Under the pieces are notes generated by a model that ran no database searches, was not told the origin of the DNA, and was given only the letters and a program-made list of their open reading frames with translations. A DNA stretch of 64,000 nt from Candidatus Methanomethylophilaceae archaeon (GTDB taxonomy: Archaea; Thermoplasmatota; Thermoplasmata; Methanomassiliicoccales; Methanomethylophilaceae), in contig JAFWTC010000086.1 in the NCBI GenBank assembly GCA_017519045.1, positions 1-64,000 of the forward strand, in the 5' to 3' direction. The translations under genes and the position numbers were made by a program. Shown here piece after piece: positions 7,071 through 64,000 of this stretch. How positions within the stretch are numbered: the first letter of the stretch is position 1; each line of letters starts with the position of its first letter.

Positions 7071-7151
7071 GGGGTTTCATTCCAACACCAGTTTCGTTCG
7101 TACCCGTCACGTTCGTTTTCTTCCATCCGTGTCGACCGTATTTATCTTTAT

Positions 7152-7754: not shown

Positions 7755-7756
7755 GC

Positions 7757-8449
7757 CTATGTCATCCCCACATGCGGATTAATACGTTTGTCGGATCGGT
7801 ACTTCTTGTCCCTGGGGACTATCTGCACCGGGGCGCCGCAGAACGGGCAGCGGTCCAGCACCGCGTCCATCCCGTCCTTGTCCTCACCGAGGAGGGCGGG
7901 GCCCTTGAACGAATCTATGAACACTATGTCCTGGGCCAGAAGGGCGTCCAGCATCGGCTTGCAGCAGGCCGCCTCGACGTCCACGTCGGATATCTGGAGC
8001 TTCAGCAGGGGCCTCGCGCGGAGGTTCCTGTTCCTCTGCTCGGTGAGGACCGCATCGACCCTCTCCGCATCCACGTCCGCTCCGGGGAATCCCATCTCCG
8101 CCGCGTATGCGAGCATGCGGACCGCCTTCTGCATGTCCTTCGGGACGCCGGTCCCCACCTCGTACATGAGGCCGAGGTGGTAGAGCGCGCTGGGATCCAG
8201 CGAATCGGCGGCGTCTCCGAGATACCGTATCGCCTTCTGCATGTCCGGCTCCACCCCCTGCCCGGAGGCGTACATTATCCCCAGCTCCCTGCGGGAGGGC
8301 ATGTAGCCCTTGGCGCAGGAGGCCTTGAAGCATTCGGCCGCCTTGGCGTAATCCTTGGGGGCGTCCGTGCCGTAAAGGTACGAAAGGCCGAGCTGGTACA
8401 TCTTCTCAGCGTCGTCGAGGTCACCCGGGTGAACGTTCTCTTCAGGCAT
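7757..8449 (-). CDS. Sel1-repeat (TPR-like) protein
   Basis: This 230-residue protein holds three Sel1-like repeats in its first ~130 residues (YQLGLSYLYG..DYAKAAECFKAS; RELGIMYASGQGV..MQKAIRYLGDA; YHLGLMYEVGTGVPKDMQKA). It ends with a CPFCG half-knuckle near residue 200. Sel1 repeats are helical protein-binding scaffolds. No signal peptide is present. It is upstream of, and nearly contiguous with, the lysine-tailed coiled-coil gene. Partners are unknown. Confidence 0.75.
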   Translation of the reverse strand: MPEENVHPGDLDDAEKMYQLGLSYLYGTDAPKDYAKAAECFKASCAKGYMPSRRELGIMYASGQGVEPDMQKAIRYLGDAADSLDPSALYHLGLMYEVGTGVPKDMQKAVRMLAYAAEMGFPGADVDAERVDAVLTEQRNRNLRARPLLKLQISDVDVEAACCKPMLDALLAQDIVFIDSFKGPALLGEDKDGMDAVLDRCPFCGAPVQIVPRDKKYRSDKRINPHVGMT

Positions 8450-33744: not shown

Positions 33745-35253
33745 TCACTGGGAGCGCCTGCTGCTGGCCTCAGGCTTGGAAGCCTTGCCGACATCGAAGT
33801 TGATTCCGCAGGACATCTCGGGGTGATGCTTGTGGTTCCAGTACTGGATGAGCATCCAGCAGGGAACGTAGAGGAAGGTGGCGGCGATTCCGACGAAGAC
33901 GTACAGAAGCCCCATGGTGTCGTACACGTAGTAGAGCAGGCCGGGTATCATGAAGAAGAACTCGAAGATCATCATGAACCAGGCGCCGCAGTACCAGAAC
34001 TTGCCGACCTTGTAGACCCTCTCGACGTCCTTGAACCTGGGGTCCCTGCGGGACTTGATGAAGGCGCAGCAGCACATTCCCAGGGCGATGGCGAATCCGA
34101 GGGCGGAGACGGCGAGGATCTGGGACGCGGTGATGCCGGCCAGCATGACTATGAATCCAATGGCGGCCTCGAAGTACATGGCGAACATGGGGACGCCGTA
34201 CTTGTTGGTCCTGGAGAACAGCAGAGGGAAGTTCCCGTCCTTGGCCATGATCTGGATGGTCCTGGCGGTGGCGAGGAAGGCGCTCTGGATGATCATTACC
34301 ATTCCGGCGATGAGCAGGAAGACGGCGATGAGGCCGCCGATGTCTCCGAAATCGCCCTTGGCGATGGGGATGAGGGTTGAAGCCCCGGCCTCCTCGATGC
34401 CGGCGTTCCCGAGGGTTCCGTACATGCAGAAAGCGATGACGAAGTACATGAAGAGACAGAGGAGCCCGCAAGCGGTCAGCGCCTTGGGGACGTCCTTCTC
34501 AGGCTGCTTGTACTCGGCTCCGTAGGTGGCGGCGGACTCCCATCCGACGGCGCTCCACTGAGCGACGGTGAAGCATCCGAGGATCATCAGGATGCCGTTG
34601 CCGTCCCAGGCCCATCCGTCGGGGGACATCTGGCTTGTGATGTAGTCGAGATGGAAGTTCCCGTTCAGCAGAGGCACCAGACAAATGATCAGAATGGGGA
34701 CGATGGTGATTCCGGCGAGGATCAGCTGGACCTTCGCTCCGCCCTCGAGCCCCTTGCGCCCGGAGAGGATGATGAATCCGTAGATGAGCGCGCCCAGGAG
34801 TATGTAGAAGCCGGTGGCGGTCATTCCGTCCAGTCCGAGGTTGAAGTAGTCGTTGATGTAGACGCCCGTCATGATGGTGAATATCGGGATGACGGGAACC
34901 CACGTGGCGAAGTAGGCCCAGGCTCCGAGAGATCCGATGACCCTTCCGGTGTTGATTTTCTTGTTCTTGTATTTCTCGTCGTCCCTGTACACGTGCTGAA
35001 TCGAACCGCCGATTCCCGCGACGCCGAAGGTGGCACACATCTCCCCGAGAGGGAGGTTGAGCAGGAATCCAGAAAGGACGGAGAGCACCCAGATGATGAT
35101 GCTCATCGCCCAAAGCGTTAGAGATAAGTCGCACAACGACGGAACGATCAGAATGGGGATACCCATGGCGATGATGAGCCCCTGCTTCCAGTCGATAGTC
35201 CTGAGAAGCTCATACGTGCCGCCTTGAGTGCCGCTGCTTTCTGCGTCTGCCAT
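33745..35253 (-). CDS. APC-family permease (methylamine/amino-acid type)
   Basis: A 502-residue, 12-helix transporter. It opens with the TIDWKQGLIIAMGIPILIVPSL segment and has ATYGAEYKQPEKDVPKAL in the middle and SRRDPRFKDV before the last helices. It is closely related to the permeases at 40600 and 43033. In methanogens such APC permeases, annotated as MtmP, accompany methylamine methyltransferase genes, so methylamine uptake is likely, but amino acids remain possible. A TTTATAAAC box at 35308-35316 on the minus strand gives a ~32-nt leader. The leader has the inverted repeat GACCT..AGGTC at 35269-35282. Confidence 0.85.
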   Translation of the reverse strand: MADAESSGTQGGTYELLRTIDWKQGLIIAMGIPILIVPSLCDLSLTLWAMSIIIWVLSVLSGFLLNLPLGEMCATFGVAGIGGSIQHVYRDDEKYKNKKINTGRVIGSLGAWAYFATWVPVIPIFTIMTGVYINDYFNLGLDGMTATGFYILLGALIYGFIILSGRKGLEGGAKVQLILAGITIVPILIICLVPLLNGNFHLDYITSQMSPDGWAWDGNGILMILGCFTVAQWSAVGWESAATYGAEYKQPEKDVPKALTACGLLCLFMYFVIAFCMYGTLGNAGIEEAGASTLIPIAKGDFGDIGGLIAVFLLIAGMVMIIQSAFLATARTIQIMAKDGNFPLLFSRTNKYGVPMFAMYFEAAIGFIVMLAGITASQILAVSALGFAIALGMCCCAFIKSRRDPRFKDVERVYKVGKFWYCGAWFMMIFEFFFMIPGLLYYVYDTMGLLYVFVGIAATFLYVPCWMLIQYWNHKHHPEMSCGINFDVGKASKPEASSRRSQ

Positions 35254-40599: not shown

Positions 40600-42060
40600 T
40601 CACGCGGCGTTCTTCTTCTGGACGGCGAGCCAGATGGGGACGTACGCGAGCAGGATGATGGCGGCGATCACGATTGCTATGTAGGCGGTAATGCCGGTGT
40701 CGGCCCCACCGTCGGAGCTCAGGTAGTAGCTCCAGTAGATCAGGCTGGGCAGCCACACGAAGAACTGGATGCAGGACATCACGGCGATGACGCCAGTCCA
40801 GCCTCTGGGCGCCTTGAAAGGCCTTTCCAGACCGGAAAACCTGGGGTCCCTCTTGGTCTTCACGTAGGCCGCAAGGGCTATTCCGTTGGCAAGGCAGTAT
40901 CCGATGGCCGAAGCGGTGAGGATGGTCATCGAGGTGGTGGAGAGCCCGTAGACCCAGGAGCTGGCCTCGAGGATCAGGAGAAGCACCAGGTTGAAAACGC
41001 TGACGAAGATCATGGCGTTGACAGGCATTCCGCGGGAGTTCTTCTTGCAGAACCAGGCGGGGAGGTTGCCCTCCTCGGCGATGGAGTTGAGCGACCTCGA
41101 GGATCCGAGGAACCCGGTCTGGATGATCAGGATCATGGCGACGATGAGGAAGAACAGGGCGATGTAGGACCCCATGTCTCCGAAGACGAACTCCGCGATA
41201 GGCTTGAGGGTGGCCGTTCCAGCCTCGGTGATGGCCTCGTATCCGAGGGACCCGTAGACGACGGTGGACACGAAGAAGTACATTATGAGACAGATGATCC
41301 CGCATCCGAAGAGCGCCTTGGGGACGTCCCTTCCAGGGTCCTTGTACTCAGGACCGTAGACAGCTGCGGTCTCCCACGCGCAGGCGCTCCACTGCCCCAG
41401 GGCGAAGCAGCCGAGAATCAGGACGACGTCCTCGGGAGACCAAGAGAATCCAGGACGGGTCCACTCGGAGGTGATGACGTTGAAGTCGAACATGCCCTTC
41501 GCGAGAGCGCCGATGAGGATGACCACGATAGGGATGAGGGAGACCAGCGCGAGGATGGTCCCGACGGTCGCGCCGCCCTCGAGCCCGCGTATGCCCAGAA
41601 GAAGCATGAGAGCCACGATGACGACTCCCACCACGAAATAGAAGCCGACGGCCATCCAGCCATCGAATCCGAGGTCGAACATCTGCATCAGGTAGTCGCC
41701 GATCATCATCGAGAATATGACCACGACGGGGCACCATGCGAACCAGTAGCACCAGGCGCTGAAGGCGCCCAGGAGCTTCCCCTTGTCTATGCCGTCGACC
41801 TTCTTGTCAGATTTGAAGACGGCTTGGGCGCACCCAGGCAGCCCGGTGGCGTTCGGGAACACGGTGACCATCTCCCCGTAGGCGAGGTTCTGGACGAATC
41901 CCTGCAACACCGAAACGGTCCAAACGAAAATACAGCAGCCCCACACGAGGGATGACACGTCTCCCAGCGAGGGGAGGATCAGCAGCGGTACTCCGAGGGC
42001 TATGAACATGCCCTGTTTCCAGCTAACCGACCTTGTCAGCGTGATGTTTTCTTCTGTCAT
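40600..42060 (-). CDS. APC-family permease (methylamine/amino-acid type)
   Basis: A 486-residue, 12-helix paralogue of the permeases at 33745 and 43033. It has SVSWKQGMFIALGVPLLILPSL at the N terminus, YGPEYKDPGRDVPKAL, KTKRDPRFSGLERPF and a C-terminal VPIWLAVQKKN. The start at 42060 follows AGGAAAGGATCGCAG; an upstream ATG at 42147 lies in AT-rich promoter DNA with TATATAGC-like boxes. Uptake of methylamine or a related amine is inferred from paralogy and context. Confidence 0.83.
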   Translation of the reverse strand: MTEENITLTRSVSWKQGMFIALGVPLLILPSLGDVSSLVWGCCIFVWTVSVLQGFVQNLAYGEMVTVFPNATGLPGCAQAVFKSDKKVDGIDKGKLLGAFSAWCYWFAWCPVVVIFSMMIGDYLMQMFDLGFDGWMAVGFYFVVGVVIVALMLLLGIRGLEGGATVGTILALVSLIPIVVILIGALAKGMFDFNVITSEWTRPGFSWSPEDVVLILGCFALGQWSACAWETAAVYGPEYKDPGRDVPKALFGCGIICLIMYFFVSTVVYGSLGYEAITEAGTATLKPIAEFVFGDMGSYIALFFLIVAMILIIQTGFLGSSRSLNSIAEEGNLPAWFCKKNSRGMPVNAMIFVSVFNLVLLLILEASSWVYGLSTTSMTILTASAIGYCLANGIALAAYVKTKRDPRFSGLERPFKAPRGWTGVIAVMSCIQFFVWLPSLIYWSYYLSSDGGADTGITAYIAIVIAAIILLAYVPIWLAVQKKNAA

Positions 42061-42318
42061 CTGCGATCCTTTCCTAAATAACAATATAATTTCCGTTACC
42101 GCATATGCTATATATTTAACTTTATCTAAAAATTTTCTAAAATTCAAATTTAGTTTATAAAGCTAACAGTATTAACGTTGACAAGTCCTTTAACCATATC
42201 AAATATGTTTCCTTATCAGCGTCTATTATAGATAATTTTATATATTACTTAAATTTGAAAACTAAGAATAATAGAAATATTTAATATAGATTAAACCCAG
42301 ATTCAAATTGAACCTGAA
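42061..42318. promoter_or_regulatory. AT-rich promoter region upstream of the permease
   Basis: This 258-bp, very AT-rich gap contains a minus-strand TATATA/TTAA box around 42108-42119, about 50 bp from the permease start. The rest shows no gene and no clear RNA structure. Confidence 0.55.
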
Positions 42319-43032: not shown

Positions 43033-44538
43033 TCATTCAGCCTTGGCCTTTGCCCTTCTGGACTGGAGCACGAACCAGAGGGGGACGTAGAGCAGCAGGA
43101 TGACCGCGCCTATGATGACGGACATCATTCCGTTCTCGATTCCTCCGTTGATGCACCAGAACGCCAGGCAGGGAATCAGGATGAAGAACTGGTAGATCAT
43201 CAGGAAGCAGGCGACCGCGAACCATCCGCGGGGGGCCCTCCAGGGCCTGGGGAGGTCCTTGAAGCGGGGACTCCTCCTGGATACGATGAACGCCAGCATC
43301 CCCATTCCTAGAGCGAAGCAGAATCCGAACGAGGACGCCGCGAGGATCATTCCCACGGAGCCGAAGTTGATGATTATGATGAATATGATTCCCATGGCGA
43401 ACTGGAACATCATCGCCGCGATCGGGGCGCCGTTCTTGTTGGTCTTTGTGAAGAACTTCGGCATGTTGCCCTCGTGTCCCATGAAGTACAGGGTCCTGGA
43501 GGATCCGAGGAACGCGGTCTGGATGAGCATGACCATTCCGGACACCAGAAGGACGAGGGCGACGATCAGCCCTATGTCTCCGAAGTCGGCCTGGGCGATC
43601 GGATAGAGGGTGGATATTCCCCACTCGTCGATCTGCTCGGGCGTGAGCATTCCGTACACGCAGAAAGGCACGATGAAGTACAGGGCGAGACAGATGAGAC
43701 CGGCGGAGATCATGGCCTTGGGAAGGTCCTTTCCGGGGTTCTTGTACTCTGCTCCGTAAGTCGCGGTGGACTCCCAGGCGCAGGCGCACCACTGGGCGTA
43801 CGCGAACATTCCGAAGACCATCATCATGTCGGTGGCGGACCACTCCCATCCGTCAGGGGTGAAGTTCTGAGCGATGAGGTCGAGGCTGAAGTGCATCTCG
43901 TTGGACGAGAATCCGGTGAACGGGACGCAGACGACGACCAGAAGCGGAAGAATGGCTATCAGGGCGAGGACGAGACCGAGTTTCGCTCCTCCGGAAAGCC
44001 CCTTGGACCCCACATAGACGATGACGCTGAAGATCACCACTCCGAGTATCAGCTGCAGGATGATCGGCTCGAACGGGAGCTCCATGCCGAGGCCGTACTC
44101 GAGGTACTTGGTGATGTAATCGCAGGAAGTACAGGTGAAAATAGGGATGACGGGGGTCCATGTGAACCAGTACGACCATGCCGTGAACGCGCCCACGAAC
44201 TTGCCTAGATCGTACTTCTTGGGATTGGGACTCGTGAACACCTTCTGGGCGCATCCCCCGATACCGGGGGTCTCGAGAGCGGCGGCCATCTCTCCAATGG
44301 CGAAGTTCTGACAGAATCCCTGAAGGACCGATACGGTCCAGATCAAAATGCTGAGACCCCAGGCGGTTCCAGCGATGTCGTAAATACCAGGAAGGATCAG
44401 GATGGGGACTCCCATCGCGATGATCATTCCTTGCTTCCAGTCAATCGACTTGACGAGACCGCTATCGGAGGAAGGCTGCGGTTGTATGGCTTCCGTGCCC
44501 CCCTTGCCGTAGATCTCGATGTCTTCACTCAAATTCAT
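43033..44538 (-). CDS. APC-family permease (methylamine/amino-acid type)
   Basis: A 501-residue, 12-helix transporter related to the permeases at 33745 and 40600. Its N terminus has a longer acidic, glycine-containing tail before SIDWKQGMIIAMGVPILILP. It also has ATYGAEYKNPGKDLPKAM and SRRSPRFKDLPRPW. Start at the ATG after GGGAGGA. A minus-strand CTTATATAG box lies at 44600-44608, about 65 bp upstream. Methylamine uptake is inferred. Confidence 0.85.
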   Translation of the reverse strand: MNLSEDIEIYGKGGTEAIQPQPSSDSGLVKSIDWKQGMIIAMGVPILILPGIYDIAGTAWGLSILIWTVSVLQGFCQNFAIGEMAAALETPGIGGCAQKVFTSPNPKKYDLGKFVGAFTAWSYWFTWTPVIPIFTCTSCDYITKYLEYGLGMELPFEPIILQLILGVVIFSVIVYVGSKGLSGGAKLGLVLALIAILPLLVVVCVPFTGFSSNEMHFSLDLIAQNFTPDGWEWSATDMMMVFGMFAYAQWCACAWESTATYGAEYKNPGKDLPKAMISAGLICLALYFIVPFCVYGMLTPEQIDEWGISTLYPIAQADFGDIGLIVALVLLVSGMVMLIQTAFLGSSRTLYFMGHEGNMPKFFTKTNKNGAPIAAMMFQFAMGIIFIIIINFGSVGMILAASSFGFCFALGMGMLAFIVSRRSPRFKDLPRPWRAPRGWFAVACFLMIYQFFILIPCLAFWCINGGIENGMMSVIIGAVILLLYVPLWFVLQSRRAKAKAE

Positions 44539-44939
44539 TCCTCCCTTGGATGAATGACGTATCAATTCATCCAGTATGATGGATAAATGTTACTGCCAAC
44601 TATATAAGTTTCACTATTGTTTAACTAATAACTATATATATGATGATTCAAACAATGTTTTTATTTCATTAATTCTGTGAAATACTAATATATAATTTTT
44701 ACTATTATCAATTTTCATTATTACTGAAATTCAGATAAATTGTAACTATAATTAGATTTATTTATATTTATAATCAATCGGTTTCTAAACTAAGCAGATA
44801 ACCTTTTATTGAGCATTCAATATTAATGTACAGGAATAAAAGATAATTTTTAATACTAGTTTTAAACAGCACATAATTCTGCACCAACGCTTTATCAATA
44901 CATCATTTATAGGAACGAGCCATACTCCGACCGGTTAGA
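44539..44939. promoter_or_regulatory. AT-rich divergent promoter region
   Basis: A 401-bp AT-rich gap between the permease and the amber-containing coiled-coil gene. It has a minus-strand TATA box at 44600-44608 and a plus-strand TTTATA at 44906-44911, about 30 nt before the coiled-coil ATG. No gene is seen. Confidence 0.6.
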
Positions 44940-45653
44940 ATGCCTGGAAGCAAATACGACAGGGAAATCCGCTTCATGGCGAGAGAAGTCGATAGGCTTA
45001 CCGCCTAGAAATCCGAACTGGAGTCCTCTCAGACTCCTAGAGACGATCTGGACAAATGCATCGCCGAGATAGACCGTCTCGTGGACCAATACACCACGCG
45101 TCGCAAGGAGATCGAGGACTCGTTCATCGAATGCGGATTGGAGGTCCCGCTGGTAAGCAGGAACCTGAACGCCACGGTCAACCCCGTCGGCCCGTCCTTC
45201 GAGCCGGTGGGAAGGGACTACAGGGTCAAGGTGGAAGAGGAGGCGAAGAGCAGGCCCACGCCGGAATACAAGAGCACGTCGGCTGAAATCGATGAGGACG
45301 CGTCTCTGGAAGACCGCCTCAGAATGATATCGTCCAAAATCTCGAAGATCGAGGACGAGATCGTGAAGGCCGCCCTCGCCGACGACTACGACGCCCGTGA
45401 GCGTCTCGAGAGGGAGGCCCGCGACCTGAAGGCAAGACGCGAGACCATCATAGCCGAGATCAAGTCCTCGCGCTCCAGGCCCGCCGCCGACGAGGAGTCC
45501 CAGAAGAGGATAGAGGCCCTGGAGGCGGAATGCCGGGCGCTCAGGTCCCAGATCTCAATGATCAGAGGCGACATCGCCGATCTGATGAACCAGATGGACG
45601 AGGTCGCCCGCAGGCTGGGGATGGACGAGGATCAGGACGAAGACGACGACTGA
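44940..45653 (+). CDS. Coiled-coil protein with an in-frame amber codon (candidate pyrrolysine protein)
   Basis: The frame runs from ATG 44940 to TGA 45651-45653, 237 codons, with one internal stop: TAG at 45006-45008 (codon 23). Protein before it reads MPGSKYDREIRFMAREVDRLTA and after it KSELESSQTPRDDLDKCIAE; the charge and hydrophobic heptads continue across the codon. A TTTATA box ~30 nt upstream fits a leaderless start at 44940, upstream of the TAG. Residues 75-200 form a long coiled coil (EDRLRMISSKISKIEDEI..). A GTG at 45081 is a weaker alternative start. The organism has pylBCDS, so amber decoding is available. Confidence 0.6.
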
Positions 45654-45780: not shown

Positions 45781-46809
45781 ATGGCAAACGAGACGCTCCT
45801 GTTCCCATTCGTCCGCGTCGTCGGACAGGAAAAGATGAAAAGAGGACTCCTCCTGAACATAGTGGACCCCGGAATCGGCGGAATCCTCATCAAAGGGGAG
45901 AAAGGAACGGCGAAATCCACCTCGGTGAGGTCGCTGGCCCAGATCCTCCCTCCCAGGACCTCCGTCGTGGGATGCCCGTTCCACTGCGACCCCCGCTATC
46001 CGAAGAGGATGTGCATTCAGTGCCGCGAGAGGCTGGCCGCCGGAGAGAAGCTGGAATCGCAGGAGGTCCCCATGTCGGTGGTGGAGCTCCCCCTGAGCGC
46101 CACCGAGGACCGCGTGTCCGGTACCCTGGACCTGGAGCACGTGCTCAAGACCGGGGAGAAGAAGTTCGAGCCGGGAGTCCTGGCCCAGGCCAACGGCAAC
46201 ATCCTGTACGTAGACGAGGTTAACCTTCTGGACGACCACATCATTGACCTGCTCTTGGATTCTGCCGCGATGGGCGTCAACTACATAGAAAGGGAGGGCG
46301 TATCGTTCTCCCACCCCGCCAAGTTCGTCCTGGTCGGGAGCATGAACCCTGAGGAGGGTAGCCTGAGGCCCCAGCTGCTCGACCGTTTCGGCCTGTGCGT
46401 CGACGTGGAGGGCGACAAGGACGTCAACGTCAGGATGGAGGTCATCAAACGCAGGATGGCGTTCGACGCCGACCCTGAGGGATACATCGCGTCCTGCCAG
46501 TCCGAGATAGACGAGATGCGCGCCAAGATCATCGAGGCCCGCTCCGTCCTGCCCAAGGTCGTGCTCGACGACAAGATAATCCACGACATAGTCTACACCT
46601 GCATCCACTTCAAGATGGAAGGGCACAGGGCCGACATCACCATGATGAGGGCTGCCAAGGCGAATGCGGCCCTCGACGGAAGGACGGAGGTCACCAAGGC
46701 GGACCTCCGCACCGTCGCTCCGCTGGTCCTCGGCCACCGCCTGAAGAAGCGCGCGTTCGAGGAGGTCGCCTTCGACATGAAGGAGCTGGACCTATGCCTG
46801 GGCCTCTGA
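45781..46809 (+). CDS. ChlI/BchI-like AAA+ ATPase
   Basis: A 342-residue protein with Walker A GEKGTAKST near residue 39, a Cys-rich insertion CPFHCDP..MCIQCRE (70-85), Walker B ILYVDEVNLLDD and sensor 1 GSMNPEEG. It belongs to the magnesium/cobalt chelatase ATPase subunit group. The ATG is 16 nt before the end overlap with the ChlD-like gene, so the two make a complex. Methanogens do not make chlorophyll, and no CobN or BchH subunit is near. Metal insertion into, or remodelling of, a tetrapyrrole (corrinoid or F430) is the family-based guess. A TTATAAATA box at ~45720 precedes it. Confidence 0.85.
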   Translation: MANETLLFPFVRVVGQEKMKRGLLLNIVDPGIGGILIKGEKGTAKSTSVRSLAQILPPRTSVVGCPFHCDPRYPKRMCIQCRERLAAGEKLESQEVPMSVVELPLSATEDRVSGTLDLEHVLKTGEKKFEPGVLAQANGNILYVDEVNLLDDHIIDLLLDSAAMGVNYIEREGVSFSHPAKFVLVGSMNPEEGSLRPQLLDRFGLCVDVEGDKDVNVRMEVIKRRMAFDADPEGYIASCQSEIDEMRAKIIEARSVLPKVVLDDKIIHDIVYTCIHFKMEGHRADITMMRAAKANAALDGRTEVTKADLRTVAPLVLGHRLKKRAFEEVAFDMKELDLCLGL

Positions 46810-48737
46810 GCGCCCCGCAGTACCCGTTCTCAGCCGTATACGGGATGGAACAGGTGAAGAAGGCGCTGATGTGCGCCATGGTCAACCCCCGCGTCAAGAC
46901 CGTGCTGATAATAGGGGCTTCGGGCACCGGGAAGACGCTGGTGGCCCGTTCGCTGGGAAGGATATCCGGGAAGAGGATCGTGAACGTCCCCCTGAACGTC
47001 ACCGACGAGCAACTGTTCGGATGCCTGGACATCGAGTTCGCCATCAAGGAGGGAAAGATAGAGCTGCAGGACGGGCTCCTGAAGCGCGCGGACGGGAACA
47101 TCCTCTACATGGACGACGTCAACCTGTTCGAGCAGAGGATGACCAACGGGGTCATCGACGCCGTGCTGACCGGGAAGGTGAGGATAGAGAGGGAGAACAT
47201 CTCGACCTCGTACGACGTCGACACCATCCTGGTCGCCACGATGAACGTCCACGACTCCTATCTCAGCCCCGCGATACTGGACCATTTCGACATCTGCGTG
47301 AAGGCCGACTATCCCGACGACGAGGCCGGGAGGACGGAGATACTCAGACGCAGCCTCGCTTTCGACGAAGACCCGGACGCCTTCGCGGAGGCATACGCCG
47401 ACAAGGATGCAGAGGTATCCAGGAGGATAGCCGACGCGAAGGAGATCGTTAAGAGCCTGGCTCTGGACGACGAGGTACTGGAGGCCATCGCCACGGTCAG
47501 CGGCGGAATGGACATCCAAGGCTCGCGCGGGGACCTCTCGGCTACCAACGTCGCGATATCCCTGGCCGCCATAGACGGCAGGAGCACCGTGTCCTTCGAC
47601 GACGTGGAGGAGGCCTCCATGATGTGCCTCGCCCACCGCCGCAAGGTGATCGGAGGCAGGCGCGTGGACAAGATGGAGAAAGTGGTCAGGTCCAGCGTTG
47701 GATTCAACACAGAGTCCAGGGCGATCTTCAAGGCCGTCCACCCAAGCCGCGAGAATCCCAAAATCGATGACGCCGAGGCCGAGGAGGCGCCCAGCGCCGT
47801 CGACCCCCGCGCCGTGGCCAAGGAGGATGAGGGCAAAGGGAAGACCGAGGACGTCATAACCAAGATCGGGGAGACGTTCGAGACCATAGACCTCTTCGAC
47901 CGCGAGAGCGCCAAGGCCAGAGGCGTGTCCAGGAACAAGGGGAAGAGGGGGATGCAGAAGACCGACACCAGGACCGGAAGGTACGTCGGATCGCGCATCA
48001 CCGAGCAGAAGAACCCTGACCTCGCATTCGACGCCACCGTCCGCGCGGCCGCCCCGTATCAGCTCAAGCGCCACGCCGAGGCCGAGACGGACATGGCCGT
48101 GATCATCGAGAAGAGCGACATGAGGGAGAAGATCAGGGAGACCAGGACGTCGTCGACGTTCCTATTCGCGGTGGACACCAGCGGATCCCTGATCATCAGG
48201 AACAGGATGACTGCCGTGAAGGGAGCGATTCTCTCCCTGCTCAAGCAGCATTACATCAAGAAGGACCGCGTGGGGTTCCTGACCTTCAACGAGAAGTCGA
48301 TCACCATGCTGCTCCAGCCCTCCAAGGAGGTGGAATGCATCTACAAGCTCCTGGACGACCTGGCGATCGGTAAGAGGACTCCCCTCTCGGCCGCCCTGCA
48401 ATACCTGAGCGACTACATGTCCATGTACGTCAAGAAGCGTCCGAACGACGAATGCTACGTCGTCCTGGTGACCGACGGCGGCGCGAACATCCCCCTGGAT
48501 CCCGATGACACCGAGACCGACCCGCTGGAGGAGGCCCTCGGAATCGCCAGGAAGATGAACGTCCCGAACGTGAAATGGATAGTGATAGACTCCGAGAAGA
48601 GGTACGACACCGTCCATCACGCCAAGTCGTTCGCCGACGCCCTGCACGCGAGGTACTACACCTTGGACGAGCTCCGCATCGTCACGCACGAGGAGGAGCG
48701 CCTGGTGCACACGGCCACCCCCCATATAATCAAATGA
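46794..48737 (+). CDS. ChlD-like AAA+ / VWA-domain protein
   Basis: A 647-residue protein. Residues 10-330 are an AAA+ module (Walker A GASGTGKT, Walker B ILYMDDVNLFEQ). An acidic linker (~330-420) follows. Residues ~445-640 form a VWA domain with the MIDAS motif DTSGS..., TPLSAAL and VTDGGAN. This is the layout of chelatase subunit D. Its start overlaps the ChlI-like gene by 16 bp. The two subunits form an ATP-driven machine; with corrinoid-dependent methyltransferases downstream, a role in corrinoid or methyltransferase maturation is inferred. Confidence 0.85.
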   Translation: MPGPLSAPQYPFSAVYGMEQVKKALMCAMVNPRVKTVLIIGASGTGKTLVARSLGRISGKRIVNVPLNVTDEQLFGCLDIEFAIKEGKIELQDGLLKRADGNILYMDDVNLFEQRMTNGVIDAVLTGKVRIERENISTSYDVDTILVATMNVHDSYLSPAILDHFDICVKADYPDDEAGRTEILRRSLAFDEDPDAFAEAYADKDAEVSRRIADAKEIVKSLALDDEVLEAIATVSGGMDIQGSRGDLSATNVAISLAAIDGRSTVSFDDVEEASMMCLAHRRKVIGGRRVDKMEKVVRSSVGFNTESRAIFKAVHPSRENPKIDDAEAEEAPSAVDPRAVAKEDEGKGKTEDVITKIGETFETIDLFDRESAKARGVSRNKGKRGMQKTDTRTGRYVGSRITEQKNPDLAFDATVRAAAPYQLKRHAEAETDMAVIIEKSDMREKIRETRTSSTFLFAVDTSGSLIIRNRMTAVKGAILSLLKQHYIKKDRVGFLTFNEKSITMLLQPSKEVECIYKLLDDLAIGKRTPLSAALQYLSDYMSMYVKKRPNDECYVVLVTDGGANIPLDPDDTETDPLEEALGIARKMNVPNVKWIVIDSEKRYDTVHHAKSFADALHARYYTLDELRIVTHEEERLVHTATPHIIK

Positions 48738-49649: not shown

Positions 49650-51275
49650 TCACTGGACGATCTCGAACTCCCTGAGAGACAGGAACCTTCCCTCGCAAGC
49701 CTGCTCGCAGCGCCTGCAAGCGGTCCCGGCGCACCTGTCCGACTTCACGTAGGCGTGGACGCCGTCGTCCTCCAGCTCGATGGACAGTGCCTTCTCCGGG
49801 CAGGCCTTCATGCACTTGCGGCATCTGATGCATCCGTTAACCTTCCCCGTCAGGACGGTCCTGGATTCCTCGAGCATGATGACTCCCCTCTTCTCCACGT
49901 CGGGCAGGTCGGTCTTGGCGAGCCTCTCGACCTTCACGTTCTCGGAAGGCTCCGAGAGAGGAGGAAGGCCGTATATGTCGAGCATGGGGTTGTACTGGTC
50001 GGCGGGCATGCCAGTGCACCAGAGCGAGTACTCGATGGAATAGATGTTCTTGAACGTCTCGGAGGTTGCGAACATGACGTGGGTGGCCCTCAGCTCCTTA
50101 GCGAACTCGCGGAGCTTGAGCAGGTCGACCTTCCCGAGGGCGACCTTCCTAGCCATCTCTATGGACGTGTTCCCGAACTGGATCAGATGCGTCGCGCCAG
50201 GACAGACCATGCCTATCCCCAGGGCCTTGATCGCATCGACGTAGAGTCCGGAGGCGCCGGACATGTACGCCTTCTTGACGTCCCCGGTCCACAGGCCGGC
50301 CTCGTGAAGCAGAGTGAGGAATCCGGCGCGGAGCGCCCCGATCGCCTTCCCTGCCTCCTCCACGTCATGGGACGTGATGCATACGTCGTCCTGGAGATGG
50401 ATCCTCTCGTCGGGCGTGAGGATGGCTGGAGTCTTGATCAGGCCGCCGTATATTCCGCAGTACAGCGTGGCCACGACGCCGGTTCCGGTGACTCCGACCG
50501 CAGGCTGCTTCCCTTTGGAGATGACCTTTCCCGTGCAGGGATCGACAACGTCGGATTTCGTGTCGATTATGGAGCCGTTCAGCACGGTGCACTCCCATCC
50601 GCCCTCCACAGGGTCGACATCGGAAATCGCGCCGGGTGCGGCCAGCATTCCGCGCTCGATCTCCTGTCCTTCGAGGGCGGGACCGGCTGCCGCGGATCCG
50701 GTGTAGATCTTCCCGTCGACGACGAGGGCCATCTCGGCGTTGGTTCCATAGTCGACGACGATGACCGGCTCCTTCTCGTCGACTATCCCGGTCATCTTGA
50801 GCATGGCGATGGCGTCGGCCCCGATCTCGTGGGTGACCGCGGGAGGAATAATGACCTCGGCGTCCGGCATCCCCACGAGCCCGAGCTCGGAGGCCTTCCT
50901 GATGGAGCCGTTCCTCTCCGGAGGGATGACGCCCATGCTCTTGAGCGCGTTCTTCCCGGCGTAAGCCAGGTCCCTGATCTCTATGTTCTCGAACAGGGAC
51001 ATCTGGAAGGTGTTGCCGCAGACGCCGATCCTCTTGACCTGCGTGAGGTCAATCCCGAGCGCGGCGAAGAGGTTGTTGGCCGCATTCACTATCAGCCCGT
51101 GGGCGACGTCCTCGCCGGACTGGATGGCGAAGTTGACGTGGTCGATGACGTTCATCCCGGGAATGGGATGACGCTGTGTGATTGCTGTGCCGAGAGTTTC
51201 GCCGGTATCCAGGTCGAGGGCCTGGCAGCGGAGTCCGCTGGTGCCGATGTCCAATGCGATTCCATAGTTGGCCAT
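49650..51275 (-). CDS. ramA: Methylamine methyltransferase corrinoid protein reductive activase
   Basis: A 541-residue protein. It begins MANYGIALDIGTSG, the ASKHA-type ATP-binding fold seen in RamA, with IVVDYGTNAEMAL in the second half of the fold. Two C-terminal iron-sulfur clusters (CIRCRKCMKACP and CAGTACRRCEQAC) complete it. RamA uses ATP and an electron donor to reduce inactive Co(II) corrinoid to Co(I). A terminator at 51422 separates it from the mtb/mtt operon, and a TTAAATAA box at 51326-51336 gives its own promoter. The start at 51275 follows a weak ribosome site. Confidence 0.9.
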   Translation of the reverse strand: MANYGIALDIGTSGLRCQALDLDTGETLGTAITQRHPIPGMNVIDHVNFAIQSGEDVAHGLIVNAANNLFAALGIDLTQVKRIGVCGNTFQMSLFENIEIRDLAYAGKNALKSMGVIPPERNGSIRKASELGLVGMPDAEVIIPPAVTHEIGADAIAMLKMTGIVDEKEPVIVVDYGTNAEMALVVDGKIYTGSAAAGPALEGQEIERGMLAAPGAISDVDPVEGGWECTVLNGSIIDTKSDVVDPCTGKVISKGKQPAVGVTGTGVVATLYCGIYGGLIKTPAILTPDERIHLQDDVCITSHDVEEAGKAIGALRAGFLTLLHEAGLWTGDVKKAYMSGASGLYVDAIKALGIGMVCPGATHLIQFGNTSIEMARKVALGKVDLLKLREFAKELRATHVMFATSETFKNIYSIEYSLWCTGMPADQYNPMLDIYGLPPLSEPSENVKVERLAKTDLPDVEKRGVIMLEESRTVLTGKVNGCIRCRKCMKACPEKALSIELEDDGVHAYVKSDRCAGTACRRCEQACEGRFLSLREFEIVQ

Positions 51276-51421
51276 GTTATCAATCCGTTCTCCAGATGCA
51301 AAAGATGCCTCTGTATCCATCCGACATTATTTAATGATGTAGACGGGACCAGGAACGATGGGCGGAAGGACGTCCCGAAGCGCTGAAAAGCCAGACGGAA
51401 TAAAAGAAAGGAAGAGGTTTT

Positions 51422-53867: not shown

Positions 53868-55385
53868 TCAGTTGCCGGCTTTGAACTCGTCGTCGGCCGC
53901 CTTGACGATGGCCTTGATCTTCTCGAGCCTTGCCTCGGGGATGGGCTGAACGACGTGGTTCTTCATGACGTCCTCGACGATGTCGTGGGCGACCTCTACG
54001 CAGGACTTGGATCCCTGGGACTTCCAGTCTCCGAGCATGTCCCTGTTGAACACGAGGGGGTCAGAGGGCATCTCGAAGTGCTCCATGGTGGTGGGGTGTC
54101 CGATGAAGTCGTTTCCGACTCCGATCTCCTTGATGGGGTCCACGGCGAGGGTCTCGTCGTTGACGACGATTCCTTCCATGGCCTTCCTCTCCATCGCGAT
54201 GATATCGTTGTCGATGACCATCTGCTCCATGGAGAAGGTCTGTCCGAGCTCGAGCATTCCGGCTCCGTAGATAGCGTTGGCTCCGGCCATGGCGGGGAGA
54301 AGAGAGGTGATGGTCTTCTCGTGGGCGGCCTGGGAGTCAGGGACCTTGGCGTCAGTCTACATTCCGGCGACGTAGACGGGCAGTCCGTAGTACTGTCCGA
54401 GCTCTGCGACGGCCGCGGAGATGAGTCCGAGCTCAGGGGATCCGACAGGAGCGGTTCCGTGCTTGAGGTCGAAGGTGGTGGTGGAAGATCCGTAGTAGAC
54501 GGCCGCGCCGGGCTTCGCCAGCTCAGCGAGGACGATACCGGAGAGGATCTCAGCGCTGTGGGTGACGAGGGTTCCGGCCAGGTGGATGGAAGAGGAACCT
54601 CCGGCCATGGCCATGGACAGGACGTTGACGGGGATGCCGTACCTGGCGCCCTGGATGATGACCTGGCATGCGTTGAAGCTGAGCTCAAGGGGAGAGGTGG
54701 GGCACACGAGCATGGTCATGAGGGGCCTGTCGCGGGCCATCTTCTCATCGCCGTCGTACATGGCCTTGAGGATCTCCCAGTAGTACTTCACGTGTCCAGC
54801 GACGGGGTCGATGTGGTTGAAGCACTTGGTGGTGTTTACCATGGAGGTGTACATCTCGTGGACGTCCTCGGCTCCGACACCTGCCCAGTCCCTTGCGGAG
54901 ACGGCGAGGGAATAGAAGCTGATACCGTCGCACCAGTCGCACAGCTTGGCGGTCATGGCGAGGTCGTGGTCGTTGGAGTCACGGGTCTCGTACTTGCCGT
55001 CGCCGAGGTAGTCGCACATCTGGATTCCGGTTCCGAAATCGGTGTAGTGGACGCGTCCCTTCCAGCTCTGCTCGATCCTGTGCTCGTCAGTGTAGTTGCC
55101 GTCCTCGTCGAGGTCCCTTCCGTAGATGTAGAAGGTCTTGGGGGCCCTAGCCAGAGCGAGGTTGAGGACGAAGTCGGGGATCCTGACCATGTTGGTCTCG
55201 TAATCGACGATGCAGCCCGCATCCTCGAAGATGTGCCTGGCCTCGTCGTCAGAGACCTGGACTCCGTAGTTGGAGAGGACATCCCTGGTGGCGCGGTCGA
55301 TGGCCTCGAGGTTGTTCTGGGAGAACAGCTTGAATTTCGTTCCGATAAGGTCTCCCCTACCGGGATACTGAATCTCTTTGCTCAT
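53868..55385 (-). CDS. mttB: Trimethylamine methyltransferase, pyrrolysine-containing
   Basis: A 505-residue protein with an in-frame amber codon at 54357-54359, residue 343 (sequence VAGM before and TDAKVPDSQ after). It starts [12 protein letters not shown] after GGAGGAATC; the in-frame ATG 24 nt upstream lacks a site. MttB transfers a methyl group from trimethylamine to MttC, using pyrrolysine to bind and activate the amine. Reading the TAG as stop would leave a 342-residue fragment. Confidence 0.95.
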
Positions 55386-55460
55386 TTGATTCCTCCTATG
55401 CTTTCGCAAGCAATCTATGAAGTTGTTTATTGATAATCTGTTTCTGTCTATTAGTAATGT

Positions 55461-55490: not shown

Positions 55491-56894
55491 TCACTTTCTG
55501 AGCTTCTCGCGGAACTTCTCGCAGCTGTTGATCTTGATGTCGAGAATGTTCTCGATGTTCATCTTAGCGAGAATTCCACGGGGTGCTCCGGGGATACCGG
55601 TGACGGATCCGATCTTGAGCTCCTCACGGAGGTCCCTCATGATGCACTCGTCGCCGAGGTCCATCGAGGTGACGCCGAGCTTCTTGGCGACGTACTCCTT
55701 GGCCTTGTCGAGCCTCATGTTCTTGGCGTACATCATCCTGGCAACCATGTCACCGGCGGTCCTGATTCCTCCCATTCCGGAAGCGACCAGGTGGGGGATG
55801 TCCATTCCCATGGGGTCTCCGACTCCGACCTAGACACCGTCGACCTTGGCGATCTCGACCATGGCCTTGTTGCACCTGGCGACAGCGTCGAGCGGAGGGG
55901 TCTCGAACATCGGGATTCCGCCGACTCCCATTCCCATGTCGACATGGACGGGTATGGGGGAGTCCTCGACGGCCTTCTTGATGAAGGTGACGGCCCTTCC
56001 GAGGTTCCAGGCAAGGGACCTGGAGGTGTTGGTGTTGCAGACGGCGCCGAAAACGTTTGCACCGGCCTTGGCGACGAGCTGAGCCTGCTGGTGGGGGTAG
56101 AGTCCGGCGGCGATCTCGCCCTCGAACTCGATCATTCCGTGGATTCCCATGACGGACTCTCCGGCGGCACCGACGTTGATGTAGGCCTCGGGGCAGAGTT
56201 CCCTGAGCTTCTTGACTCCGTTGAGAGTTCCGACGAAGTCAGCATCTCCGGCGGATCCAGTGGTGTCGAAGTTGAATCCGTCGGATCCGGCGGCCTGGAG
56301 CCTGGTGGTGACGAACTCGATGTCCCTGGCGAGGTGCTCGGCGGCGGCCTCGGAAGAAGCCATGGACTCCTCGATCTTGAACTCCCTCATGAGGTCGGCG
56401 GGGTTGCCGTAAGGTCCGTCGGGAGCGTAGTAGAGACCCATGTTGGGCATCGCTCCGTAGAAGTAGGGGGCGATGATCTCGGCCTGGATCTCCTCCATGG
56501 TCTGCATCTCCATGGAGATGACGGGCTTGACAGGCTTGATGGAATAGTCGGAGTGGGCCAGTTCGAAGGTGTCCGCTCCGAGCGCCCTCTCGTGGAGAAG
56601 GGCGGCCTCGAGCCTTCCCATGTCGACACCGTTTCCGGAGTTTCCGTTGTCTCCGGTGAAGTCCAGCTGCCCGATATCGTAGGTCATGACGACCTCGTGT
56701 CCGGGCTCGACTCCGACGACCCTGCTCTGGTCCATGATGATCTCGCACATGTGCTCGATGTCGTTGGCGTTGAGCGCGGGAATGCTGGCCATGTCTGCGG
56801 CATCTGCGGTTCCGGCCTGGATGTCATTCATGATCTGCTCTTTGGTCATGGTGACCCTGCGGCCATCCCCCATTCTCGTGTAGTACTCAGTCAT
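55491..56894 (-). CDS. mtbB: Dimethylamine methyltransferase, pyrrolysine-containing
   Basis: A 467-residue protein, the family length, with an in-frame amber codon at 55830-55832, residue 355 (VDGV before, VGVGDPMG after), matching the known Pyl position near 356 of Methanosarcina MtbB. It starts [13 protein letters not shown] after GAGGGG. It transfers a methyl group from dimethylamine to MtbC, leaving monomethylamine. The monomethylamine methyltransferase gene (mtmB) is not in the window. mtbC lies 29 nt upstream. Confidence 0.96.
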
Positions 56895-60829: not shown

Positions 60830-61643
60830 ATCCTTTCTTTTTTATGGTGAACGCGGCGCTGTTGACGGCCATGACCGCGGTGCCGATCTCCAACGGGTCG
60901 TGGATGATGGCCTTGGCCTTCCTCCTGCCCTCGTCGTCGAACTGATGGGGCACCCCAGGGGTCGAGACTATGGAGCCCTCGGCCATTATCCTTCCGGGGA
61001 AGGATGCGGGAGCCGCGTTGAGAATCAGGCTGTGCGAGGATATGGCGGAGTCCTTGTCCCTGAGGGCCTTGACTCCGAACCTGGCCTGCAGGGCCTCGGC
61101 CTTCTCCGGCACTATGTCGGTAACAGACACCTCGGCGCCCATGCCCTTGAGGATCTGCACGGCCTCCGTACCCACGAACCCGGCGCCAATCACCAGGACC
61201 TTCTTGCCCTCCAGGCCGCCGGCGGCGTTTCTGAGGCAGACGGAGTATCCCATCGCGGTGCCCCAGGAATTGTTGGTCTGCCTGCCCTCGCGGACGTTGT
61301 ACGCGATGAACATGGTGTCGTCGGCCATCATGACTATGTCCGCGCCGTCGCGGATGGCCTCGGAGAACCCTTGGACGTCGGTGCCCGAGGTCACGTAGGA
61401 GTCCATGCCGAGCCTGCCCACGATGGCGTTGACGGATTCGGAGAATCCCCCGATGACGCCCAGCCCCGAGGTTATGGGGACGCAGGCGGCCCTGAATCCG
61501 GAAAGATCGACGTCTCCTTCGAGTCCGGCGGCCTGGATCGCCATCTGCTTGACCGTGGTTCCGCATGCCCTTCTGAGCACTGAGTCCAGGTCCATCTTGT
61601 CGTCCGGGACCCCCTCTATGAGGTCGGAAGTCAGCCTGGTCAT
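60828..61643 (-). CDS. pylD: Pyrrolysine biosynthesis dehydrogenase
   Basis: A 271-residue protein. Its ATG overlaps the pylC stop (ATGA). A Rossmann motif VLVIGAGFVGTEAVQILKGMGA at about residues 145-166 binds NAD. The N-terminal domain and ASSHSLILNAAPAS fit PylD, which oxidises the lysine-derived dipeptide so it cyclises to pyrrolysine. It ends at the terminator at 60814. Confidence 0.93.
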   Translation of the reverse strand: MTRLTSDLIEGVPDDKMDLDSVLRRACGTTVKQMAIQAAGLEGDVDLSGFRAACVPITSGLGVIGGFSESVNAIVGRLGMDSYVTSGTDVQGFSEAIRDGADIVMMADDTMFIAYNVREGRQTNNSWGTAMGYSVCLRNAAGGLEGKKVLVIGAGFVGTEAVQILKGMGAEVSVTDIVPEKAEALQARFGVKALRDKDSAISSHSLILNAAPASFPGRIMAEGSIVSTPGVPHQFDDEGRRKAKAIIHDPLEIGTAVMAVNSAAFTIKKKG

Positions 61644-62800
61644 CAGACCATCTCCGGGACGCCGTCGATGAACTCCTCGGCCGAGCACTCGTCCAGTATC
61701 TTCTCTATGCATCTTGCGGCCTTTATGTCCGCCTCCTTCTCGGTCGCGCCCGTCGATATGAGCGTCGCCCTCCATTCGGGCTTCCCGGGCTCGTAGTCCG
61801 TAATCGAGTTCTCGCATCCGAACAGTCCGGGAGCGAATCTCGGGACGTGGACGTGACCGAACTCCTTCTCCCCGCTGGAGCGGAGGACCCCGTCCTTGAA
61901 GACGACGTGGCGGTACACTGAACACCCTGTTCCAGGCCTTCTGCCGGCGGGCTTTCCGAAAGCGGTCGTGGCCAGCTCCTCCAGGAGGTTCACGCCAGTG
62001 GCCGCCTCTATGGCGGCGGGGGTCTGGCTCGGGATCCTCGCATCAATCTCGAGCACCCTGAGCCCCTTCGGGGTGAGTATGGCCTCGACGTCCATGAGAG
62101 CCTTCAGGCCCATCGCCTCGGCAACGTCCCTGCCTATCTTTCCGAAGAGCTCGTCGTCCTCGGGGGACAGGATTCCTGGATTGCACCTGACCATCTTGCA
62201 ATCGTAGTTGGAGTCGAGGCACACCTCGGTGGTGACGTAGGATGTCGCCTTCCTCCCGTTTCCGATGACTTCGATGGATACGCTCTTGCCGTGGACGAAC
62301 TCCTGCATCACAGGCTCATCCCCCAGCTCCTTGATGAACTTCAGGGCCTTTTCGACATCGGAGTCGTCATTGGCCACGGCCACGCCTATGCTTCCGCTCT
62401 GGCTCGACGGCTTGACGATCGCAGGGAATCCGCATTCCGGCCAAGGCTTGGGAAGAGGCACGCCCACGGACGCCATTATCTCGTTGGAGCGATTCTTGGA
62501 GCTGGACACCTTGTAGGATGCGAGGTCGAAGAGCAGCGGGACGTCCATCTTCATGGAGTCGAGCGTCTTCAGAAGGTCCATCTCCTCGCAGGCGGGGATG
62601 ACGGCGTCGCATCCGGAGAACACCTTCGCCGCGCCGGCAGGGTCCTTGGTGGGATCCAGGACGACCGGCTCGTCGCAGAGCGAGAGCGCGGGGGCCGAAG
62701 GCTTCCTGTCGAGGACCACGGTCTCGTAGCCTGCGGCCTTCGAGAGCAAGACGGCCTCCATGCCCTGAAGGGCGCCGCCCACGATCGCGATGCGGGTCAT
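61643..62800 (-). CDS. pylC: Pyrrolysine biosynthesis ligase
   Basis: A 385-residue ATP-grasp-like protein: IAIVGGALQGMEAVLLS at the N terminus, KPSSQSGSIGVAVA and LRVLEIDARIPSQT in the ATP-grasp core. It joins the pylB product (3-methyl-D-ornithine) to lysine. It overlaps pylB by ATGA and pylD by ATGA, so the three are co-translated. Confidence 0.94.
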   Translation of the reverse strand: MTRIAIVGGALQGMEAVLLSKAAGYETVVLDRKPSAPALSLCDEPVVLDPTKDPAGAAKVFSGCDAVIPACEEMDLLKTLDSMKMDVPLLFDLASYKVSSSKNRSNEIMASVGVPLPKPWPECGFPAIVKPSSQSGSIGVAVANDDSDVEKALKFIKELGDEPVMQEFVHGKSVSIEVIGNGRKATSYVTTEVCLDSNYDCKMVRCNPGILSPEDDELFGKIGRDVAEAMGLKALMDVEAILTPKGLRVLEIDARIPSQTPAAIEAATGVNLLEELATTAFGKPAGRRPGTGCSVYRHVVFKDGVLRSSGEKEFGHVHVPRFAPGLFGCENSITDYEPGKPEWRATLISTGATEKEADIKAARCIEKILDECSAEEFIDGVPEMV

Positions 62801-63852
62801 CTGAGCGCCTTCCTTCTGCGGGAGTCGAGATAGGCCTTGTACTCGGTGCTGGTGGCGTGCCTGTGGCCCGTCTCGTCCAGCATCTCAAACACGTGTTCCA
62901 CCGAACGGTTGCCGTTCTCGATGTCGAGCTCGTGCTGGGCGACTCCGGCCAGGTTCTTGCTGGGAGGGACAATGGACGTGACCACGTTCGCTCCGGCGTC
63001 GATCCTGGTCCTGAGGCCGGCTATGCCTTCGACGTCGAGGCTGCACGGAATCAGCTTGTCGTGGTTGAGCAGCCTCATGACCGCGATGGCCTTCAGCTCC
63101 TCGGTTGAATCGTAAGGCGTGAAATCCTGCATGGGGGTGCCCACCTGGGGCACGAAGGTCATGGCCCTCACCTGGTCGCATCCGAGGCTTCCCATGGTCA
63201 CGATGGTGTTCGCCCTGTCGCGGACGCTCTCGCCGAGGCCTATCATCATCCCGTCCTCGGTGAGGAGGCCGGCCTTCCTGGCCCAGATCTTCTGGTTGCG
63301 GCGGTCGTCGAAGCTCTGCTCCAGCCTGAGGGACTCGAACAGCTCCCTGTTGTACGTCTCCTGGTAGCATGCATACCAGTCCGCCCCTGCTTCCCTGACC
63401 ACAGGGAACATCCTCTCGGGAAGCGCGCCCGGAGATGCCATGATGCTGATTCCGACCTCGTCGTGCACGGCGCTGATCGTCTTGATCAGAAGCTTGTAGT
63501 CGTCGGCGTACATCATGGGGTCCTCGCCCATGGTGAGGTCGGACAGGTTGATGCCGGCGTCGAGGAGGCTCGCGGAGAGGTCGACGATCTCCTCCACGGT
63601 CTTCCTGTACCTGTCGATGCCGGTGTTGGACCTCCTGTAGTAGCAGAAGGTGCAGTTGTTCTTGCAATGCGTCGAGAAATAGACGAACCCGTACGTGTAG
63701 ATCCTCTTGCCGAAGACCTTGTCGCGGACCCTCCTGGCCGCGGCGTAGAGCTCCTCCAGCTCATTCTTGTCGTTTATGGACATCAGCCTGAAGACGTCCT
63801 TGGTCCCCAGCGGCTCCCCTCTCTCGGCTTTGGATATCAGCTCACTAACCAT
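62797..63852 (-). CDS. pylB: Pyrrolysine biosynthesis radical SAM lysine mutase
   Basis: A 351-residue radical SAM protein with the CxxxCxxC cluster motif CKNNCTFC (Cys63, Cys67, Cys70). It converts lysine to 3-methyl-D-ornithine. It follows pylS by 9 nt and overlaps pylC. The TIM-barrel segments GEDPMMYADDY and GLGESVRDRA are visible. Confidence 0.95.
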   Translation of the reverse strand: MVSELISKAERGEPLGTKDVFRLMSINDKNELEELYAAARRVRDKVFGKRIYTYGFVYFSTHCKNNCTFCYYRRSNTGIDRYRKTVEEIVDLSASLLDAGINLSDLTMGEDPMMYADDYKLLIKTISAVHDEVGISIMASPGALPERMFPVVREAGADWYACYQETYNRELFESLRLEQSFDDRRNQKIWARKAGLLTEDGMMIGLGESVRDRANTIVTMGSLGCDQVRAMTFVPQVGTPMQDFTPYDSTEELKAIAVMRLLNHDKLIPCSLDVEGIAGLRTRIDAGANVVTSIVPPSKNLAGVAQHELDIENGNRSVEHVFEMLDETGHRHATSTEYKAYLDSRRRKALR

Positions 63853-63861
63853 GGTCGCACC

Positions 63862-64000
63862 TCAGTCCATCTTGTATCCGTTGATGTAAGTCGTGCTCTT
63901 ACCCGTCTTCCTGACGTTGCTCTTGGAGTTCTTCAGCATCAGAAGGCGCTCGAGCCCGAAACCGACTCCGGCCCAGGGCTCATGGATGTCGTGGGCGGGG
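63862..64000 (-). CDS. pylS: Pyrrolysyl-tRNA synthetase, C-terminal end (partial)
   Basis: Only the last 45 residues lie in the window. They include EPWAGVGFGLERLLMLKNSK, the class II synthetase motif 3 (GFGLERL) of PylS, and end INGYKMD before TGA at 63862-63864. The enzyme charges tRNA-Pyl with pyrrolysine. Methanomassiliicoccales PylS usually lacks the N-terminal tRNA-binding domain, but that part and pylT lie outside the window. Confidence 0.9.
   Translation of the reverse strand, partial: PAHDIHEPWAGVGFGLERLLMLKNSKSNVRKTGKSTTYINGYKMD

Follow-up and report, generated by a model that had tools for sequence, protein, structure and literature searches.

A conserved in-frame amber codon coupled to a cysteine in a coiled-coil gene of the methylamine/pyl island suggests a selected role for pyrrolysine outside the methyltransferases

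In the methylamine methyltransferases MtmB, MtbB and MttB, pyrrolysine (Pyl) is encoded by a conserved in-frame TAG (amber) codon and resides in the active site or cavity of a TIM barrel. Its imine carbon accepts nucleophiles, as revealed by a sulfite adduct in crystals of MtmB and MttB (PMC9842639). In Methanomassiliicoccales amber codons have also been found scattered over other genes: 16 non-methyltransferase amber genes were predicted in M. alvus, and half of the amber cases of that genome have homologues without TAG (PMC4153887), while in-frame amber codons were reported in 46 genes of ISO4-H5, methyltransferases included (PMC5011839), and 25 Pyl genes in ISO4-G1, nine of them coding for methyltransferases (PMC4824259). 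A tRNA-His guanylyltransferase containing Pyl has, according to its citation in PMC4153887, been described as a case of neutral evolution. It is an open question whether selection ever maintains pyrrolysine in any protein but the methylamine methyltransferases; the remaining cases from outside this enzyme group have been interpreted as neutral.

The gene considered here, from a methanogenic archaeon of the gut, shares with mtmB, mtbB and mttB a conserved in-frame TAG, the same pyl system and the same genomic island. It occupies positions 44940-45653 (+) of the window, i.e. of the whole stretch of 64,000 nucleotides that was analysed, and its frame runs from the ATG at 44940 to the TGA at 45651-45653, giving 237 residues when the TAG is counted as one, followed by the stop codon. 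Codon 23 is a TAG (45006-45008, +), so that under the standard code the listing of open reading frames yields only a GTG-started frame of 190 codons, beginning at codon 48 (45081-45083, +). A TATA-like box, TTTATA, lies about 30 nt 5' of the ATG (44906-44911, +) and implies a translation start 5' of the TAG. In most orthologues of the gene such boxes are found at a similar distance from the ATG, namely CTTCTATATATA in seven of the eight alvus-clade genomes and TTTATAAG or ATTATAAG in two window-clade genomes. The amber codon in an otherwise open frame and the TATA box some 30 nt upstream, both part of the original prediction made from the window sequence alone, are thus borne out.

The surroundings of the gene are those of a methylamine/pyl island. 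Its divergent upstream neighbour codes for an APC-family permease (43033-44565, -), and 127 bp downstream follows a ChlI/BchI-type AAA+ chelatase subunit (45781-46809, +), which adjoins the gene in all five window-clade genomes, and then a ChlD/BchD-type AAA+/VWA subunit (46794-48737, +). Further downstream are located RamA, the methylamine corrinoid protein reductive activase (49650-51320, -; TIGR04270, 700.8 bits), and the genes for two known Pyl proteins with in-frame TAG, mttB (53868-55409, -; TIGR02369, 669 bits) and mtbB (55491-56894, -; TIGR02368, 681.5 bits), as well as pylC (61643-62800, -; TIGR03909, 306.7 bits), pylB (62797-63852, -; TIGR03910, 426.2 bits) and part of pylS (63868-64000, -; TIGR02367, 258.5 bits), which continues to C8:64509 beyond the window. 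The corrinoid proteins of the island were confirmed by profile. The pyl genes and the amber codons in mttB and mtbB that had been inferred before were accordingly recovered. ARAGORN places a tRNA-Pyl(CUA) just beyond the window on the same contig (L085:2629-2702), and the same tRNA was present in the five alvus-clade stretches that were scanned; every scanned stretch that holds the pyl cluster had it. PylS scored above the cut-off in all TAG-bearing genomes except G060, where it is a contig-edge fragment; the model of the PylS N-terminal domain (TIGR03912) had no match, as expected for this order. Three APC-family permeases are found near the island (33745-35253, 40600-42147 and 43033-44565), the first of which matches a TMAO permease model with 152 bits, below the cut-off of that model, and the window genome has four ChlI/ChlD-like pairs in all (G000:C8, C39, C62 and C84).

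When 102 genomes of the family were searched, full-length homologues were retrieved from 24 genomes of the genus (the window genome counted) and remoter homologues from a second genus, and an order-wide search of 147 genomes returned no homologue outside these two genera. The resulting alignment comprises the window protein and 25 homologues, with 11 TAG rows (the window genome, G057, G061, G069, G068, G063, G060, G059, G055, G054 and G050) and 15 rows with a sense codon. In one clade 11 of 13 genomes have the TAG at exactly codon 23, and the two other members, G065 and G058, have GAG; in the 13 aligned outgroup homologues a codon for Gln, Glu, Tyr, Ala, Gly or Lys is found at this position within an uninterrupted frame. 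Homologues hence either keep the TAG or read continuously through the position with a sense codon, in agreement with the predicted unbroken frame past the TAG. The TAG is kept among orthologues down to 38% protein identity, and, the near-identical pair G054/G055 excepted, these differ at 0.44-0.83 of their four-fold sites, i.e. near saturation. Only nine of 231 ungapped columns have a codon identical in all 11 TAG orthologues, the TAG being one of them, and its recurrence at one codon in 11 genomes excludes chance.

Codons 2-22, upstream of the TAG, have a pN/pS of 0.18 in the window clade and of 0.26 in the alvus clade, and judged by these ratios this stretch is conserved protein under purifying selection. 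Purifying selection also acts on the codons after the TAG, with codons 24-48 of the window clade being looser (pN/pS 0.66). A search for an RNA fold common to the orthologues after the TAG found none that is shared, and the constraint therefore looks to be exerted at the protein level. Translation from the GTG at 45081, or homologues with a normal downstream start and nothing conserved before it, would have refuted the original prediction; the column of this GTG is start-like in only four of the 11 TAG rows, no start codon downstream of the TAG is common to more than four of the 11 orthologues, and the codons before the TAG are constrained as described.

As controls, two other in-frame TAGs of the window genome were compared across genomes. 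The one in the UMP kinase gene (L141, G000:C4:7743-8411) is private to the window genome (1/26 genes); it lies inside the GGTxPGHTTD motif, at a site occupied by Thr, Glu or Val in other genomes. The one in a LarC-like gene is found in two of 27 genes, at the same aligned position in L167 (G000:C15:502-1680) and L177 (G062) and only in these two genomes. Set against these two controls, the level of conservation seen in the coiled-coil gene is thus unusual. A crude scan for internal TAGs by codon score gave mostly antisense false matches. A Sel1-repeat protein of the window genome (L099:18075-19716) has two in-frame TAGs. With respect to amber usage in general, TAG is the stop codon of about 10% of the sampled genes of the window genome (37/364), so that decoding at codon 23 must compete with termination, but of only 2% (2/101) in an alvus-like genome; the TAG at codon 23 has therefore been kept under two regimes of amber use.

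The most telling part of the evidence, which the original prediction did not contain, is a cysteine whose presence or absence follows that of the TAG. Alignment column 44, corresponding to Cys40 of the window protein (TGC, 45057-45059, +), is occupied by Cys in each of the 11 TAG rows but in none of the 15 sense-codon rows. Within the 13-member clade only columns 23 and 44 separate the TAG rows from the GAG rows, and in both of the latter column 44 is Arg (CGC in G065, CGT in G058). This Cys is the sole one in the alvus-clade TAG rows, apart from one extra in G054. Of the 56 columns that are invariant in the TAG rows, G065 (L007) alters only columns 23 and 44, and G058 (L014) only columns 23, 44 and 229, the third being a change from Glu to Asp. 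In trees computed without columns 23 and 44, G065 groups with G060 and G058 with G059, and an AU test, likewise without these columns, rejects a single loss of the TAG shared by G058 and G065 (p = 1.7e-6 for DNA, p = 4e-4 for protein). The change from TAG to GAG together with that from Cys to Arg hence happened twice, independently. The tree of the neighbouring RamA gene also places G065 with G060 and G058 apart from G065, but does not recover the pair of G058 and G059. As there are only three correlated changes of TAG and Cys on the tree, a sign test stays at p = 0.25, a value of 0.05 being beyond its reach; the chance that the column changed in G065 is among the two changed in G058 is, calculated by hand, 2/55 or about 0.04. 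Close to the end of the coiled-coil gene of G065 (L074), a TAA stands in frame where a Tyr is otherwise conserved, perhaps through an assembly error or because the copy is decaying.

No relationship to the methyltransferases could be detected at the level of sequence or fold. The window protein has no Pfam match at 0.001 and its relatives only weak, scattered matches to coiled-coil families; no methyltransferase profile matched, and the only NCBIfam matches, to coiled coils, remained far below cut-off. An SMC-like archaeal coiled coil (ASRP, NF045487) was rejected because its profile scored only 31.6 bits, the curated cut-off being 300, and the match covered a helical stretch only; to an RNA helicase there was no more than a weak coiled-coil match. 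AlphaFold models, run on 22 homologues with Lys in place of Pyl at position 23, are all-helical with hairpins and contain no strands and hence no TIM barrel, and a Foldseek comparison with the PDB gave nothing under an E value of 0.001, ferritin-like helices appearing at 0.06 or worse. In the model of the window protein, helices span residues 5-29 and 34-64 (pLDDT about 80-93), and the symmetry of the hairpin puts residue 23 opposite residue 40 on the other arm. In a second model, with a spacing of 21 residues between the two positions, helices span residues 5-29 and 35-68, and strict symmetry pairs residue 23 with residue 41, one turn from Cys44. A heptad reading of the alvus sequences leads to the inference that both residues might occupy g positions flanking the core. 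Since g positions make cross-helix ion pairs in antiparallel coiled coils, the replacement by Glu and Arg fits this inference.

The genomic context of the gene differs between the clades. In the window clade it is found about 4 kb from RamA with the ChlI/ChlD pair directly 3', whereas in the alvus clade RamA is its convergent direct neighbour and pylS is about 5-8 kb away where one contig holds both. Since the gene has a different neighbour in the alvus clade, it is ruled out that translational coupling to ChlI/ChlD is the mechanism in general. Divergent from the gene in that clade is a gene of about 111 residues (MEELC...HQVPA; L074:1566-1901, L072:4203-4541, L068:6183-6518). The sense-codon homologues reside elsewhere, directly 3' of another coiled-coil gene and near Sel1-repeat genes. 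Counterparts of these neighbours are present in the window at 7107-8449, 43-49% and 67-72% identical to those of the genus genomes that were compared, but the homologue of the coiled-coil gene is missing there; it therefore seems that the gene moved into the methylamine island in the TAG-bearing lineage. At the counterpart locus, the coiled-coil gene at 7107-7754 is followed by the Sel1 gene at 7751-8449, the frame of which ends with TAG GCA TGA, overlapping the next ATG.

The one reading frame, the conserved TAG, the coupled Cys and the pyl machinery are matters of observation. From these comparative data, all of which favour the original proposal that the codon could be decoded as pyrrolysine, codon 23 is very probably read in this way, incorporation as such remaining unproven without peptides. 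With a probability of roughly two in three we consider the gene to code for a non-methyltransferase Pyl protein of the methylamine/pyl island in which Pyl has been kept by selection together with a partner Cys; neither peptide nor mRNA data support this as yet. The main competitor is a neutral history, in which one ancestral TAG is read as Pyl without any special role and lingers through efficient decoding, a course that has been proposed for other Pyl genes outside the methyltransferases. Position 23 accepts six different residues in the homologues, the paucity of TAG stops in the alvus-like genome suggests that decoding is efficient, and many scattered amber genes have been reported in the order (PMC4153887, PMC5011839). 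However, neutrality sits poorly with retention in 11 of 13 genomes over near-saturating divergence, with comparable TAGs being found in only one or two genomes, with the joint loss of TAG and Cys in two lineages, and with conservation of the TAG also in the window genome, where so many genes still end in TAG; we therefore regard it as possible but unlikely.

Two further explanations appear far less probable still. If the TAG were a real stop, the first 22 codons would encode a leader peptide, possibly a regulatory upstream open reading frame, with re-initiation at a downstream GTG or ATG such as that at 45081. Such a reading could draw on the continued use of TAG as a terminator in the window genome and on the presence of the GTG-started frame, but a leader peptide with a downstream start is ruled out on comparative grounds by the lack of a conserved start, and the continuous frame of the sense homologues, the protein-level constraint on both sides of the TAG, the TATA box directly before the ATG and a linkage to Cys that would make no sense for a leader peptide all argue in the same direction. 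Similarly remote is a checkpoint of Pyl supply, by which an early TAG would tie full-length production to charged tRNA-Pyl irrespective of the chemistry of the residue: the early position of the TAG, the location of the gene inside the island and the proximity of the alvus-clade TAG orthologues to pylS, about 5-7 kb where both share a contig, would suit it, whereas a pure checkpoint would need neither the exact single-codon position nor the coupled Cys. Against the reading of a selected Pyl itself it must be noted that two pyl-bearing genomes, G065 and G058, do without Pyl at codon 23, where it is thus dispensable.

With a Pyl kept by selection together with its Cys, the following mechanism may be envisaged. 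Codon 23 of a helical-hairpin or coiled-coil protein of roughly 240 residues would be translated as Pyl by the organism's own pyl system, and Pyl23 would act jointly with Cys40, which lies across from it on the other helix of the N-terminal hairpin. The two side chains are inferred to be in contact, at positions that flank the core of an antiparallel coiled coil and at which Glu and Arg would form a salt bridge instead. It is a matter of conjecture that the electrophilic imine carbon of Pyl and the thiol of Cys might bond reversibly or make up a small reactive site. A reversible bond across the hairpin, be it as a thioaminal staple or as a reactive site opened by methylamine, ammonia or a change in redox state, is no more than a tentative proposal, for which the sulfite adduct at the imine carbon provides a chemical precedent. 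The likeliest setting, equally conjectural, would be the methylamine island beside RamA, with the protein sensing or handling methylamine, the redox state or the supply of Pyl. In contrast to MtmB, MtbB and MttB, Pyl would then be located on a helix facing a Cys and not in a barrel cavity.

The original prediction had also considered an amber codon in an unrelated coiled-coil protein to be new, and this claim stands only in part: non-methyltransferase amber genes had already been predicted in the order (PMC4153887, PMC5011839, PMC4824259), but the gene itself fits no entry of the M. alvus list (Table 7 of PMC4153887), the ISO4 gene lists being outside this comparison. Like those scattered genes it is a non-methyltransferase gene with an in-frame TAG in a pyl-bearing archaeon; the respective papers, however, contain no test of orthologues over many genomes, whereas here the TAG is found in 11 genomes along with a coupled Cys. 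It shares with the tRNA-His guanylyltransferase the occurrence of Pyl outside the methyltransferases, but while that case was described as neutral, the evidence here favours selection. New are thus the conservation test of the TAG and the link between Pyl and Cys, and we know of no Pyl-Cys pair that has been described before. A report from around 2025 on a proteome-wide Pyl code in archaea is said to claim that in some archaea numerous ordinary proteins contain Pyl, and the coiled-coil protein may be in its lists.

A TAG that is found at one codon clade-wide, is tied to one Cys and has twice been replaced along with it by Glu and Arg makes the question of selection for pyrrolysine testable, and the natural Glu/Arg versions offer controls against which the contribution of Pyl and Cys can be gauged. 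If the proposed pairing of the Pyl imine with Cys were true, Pyl would serve the methylamine island as a switch or sensor, a use distinct from methyl transfer. As TAG and Cys appear and disappear together, the data suggest that pyrrolysine is under selection for a task other than the only enzymatic role in which it is well understood.
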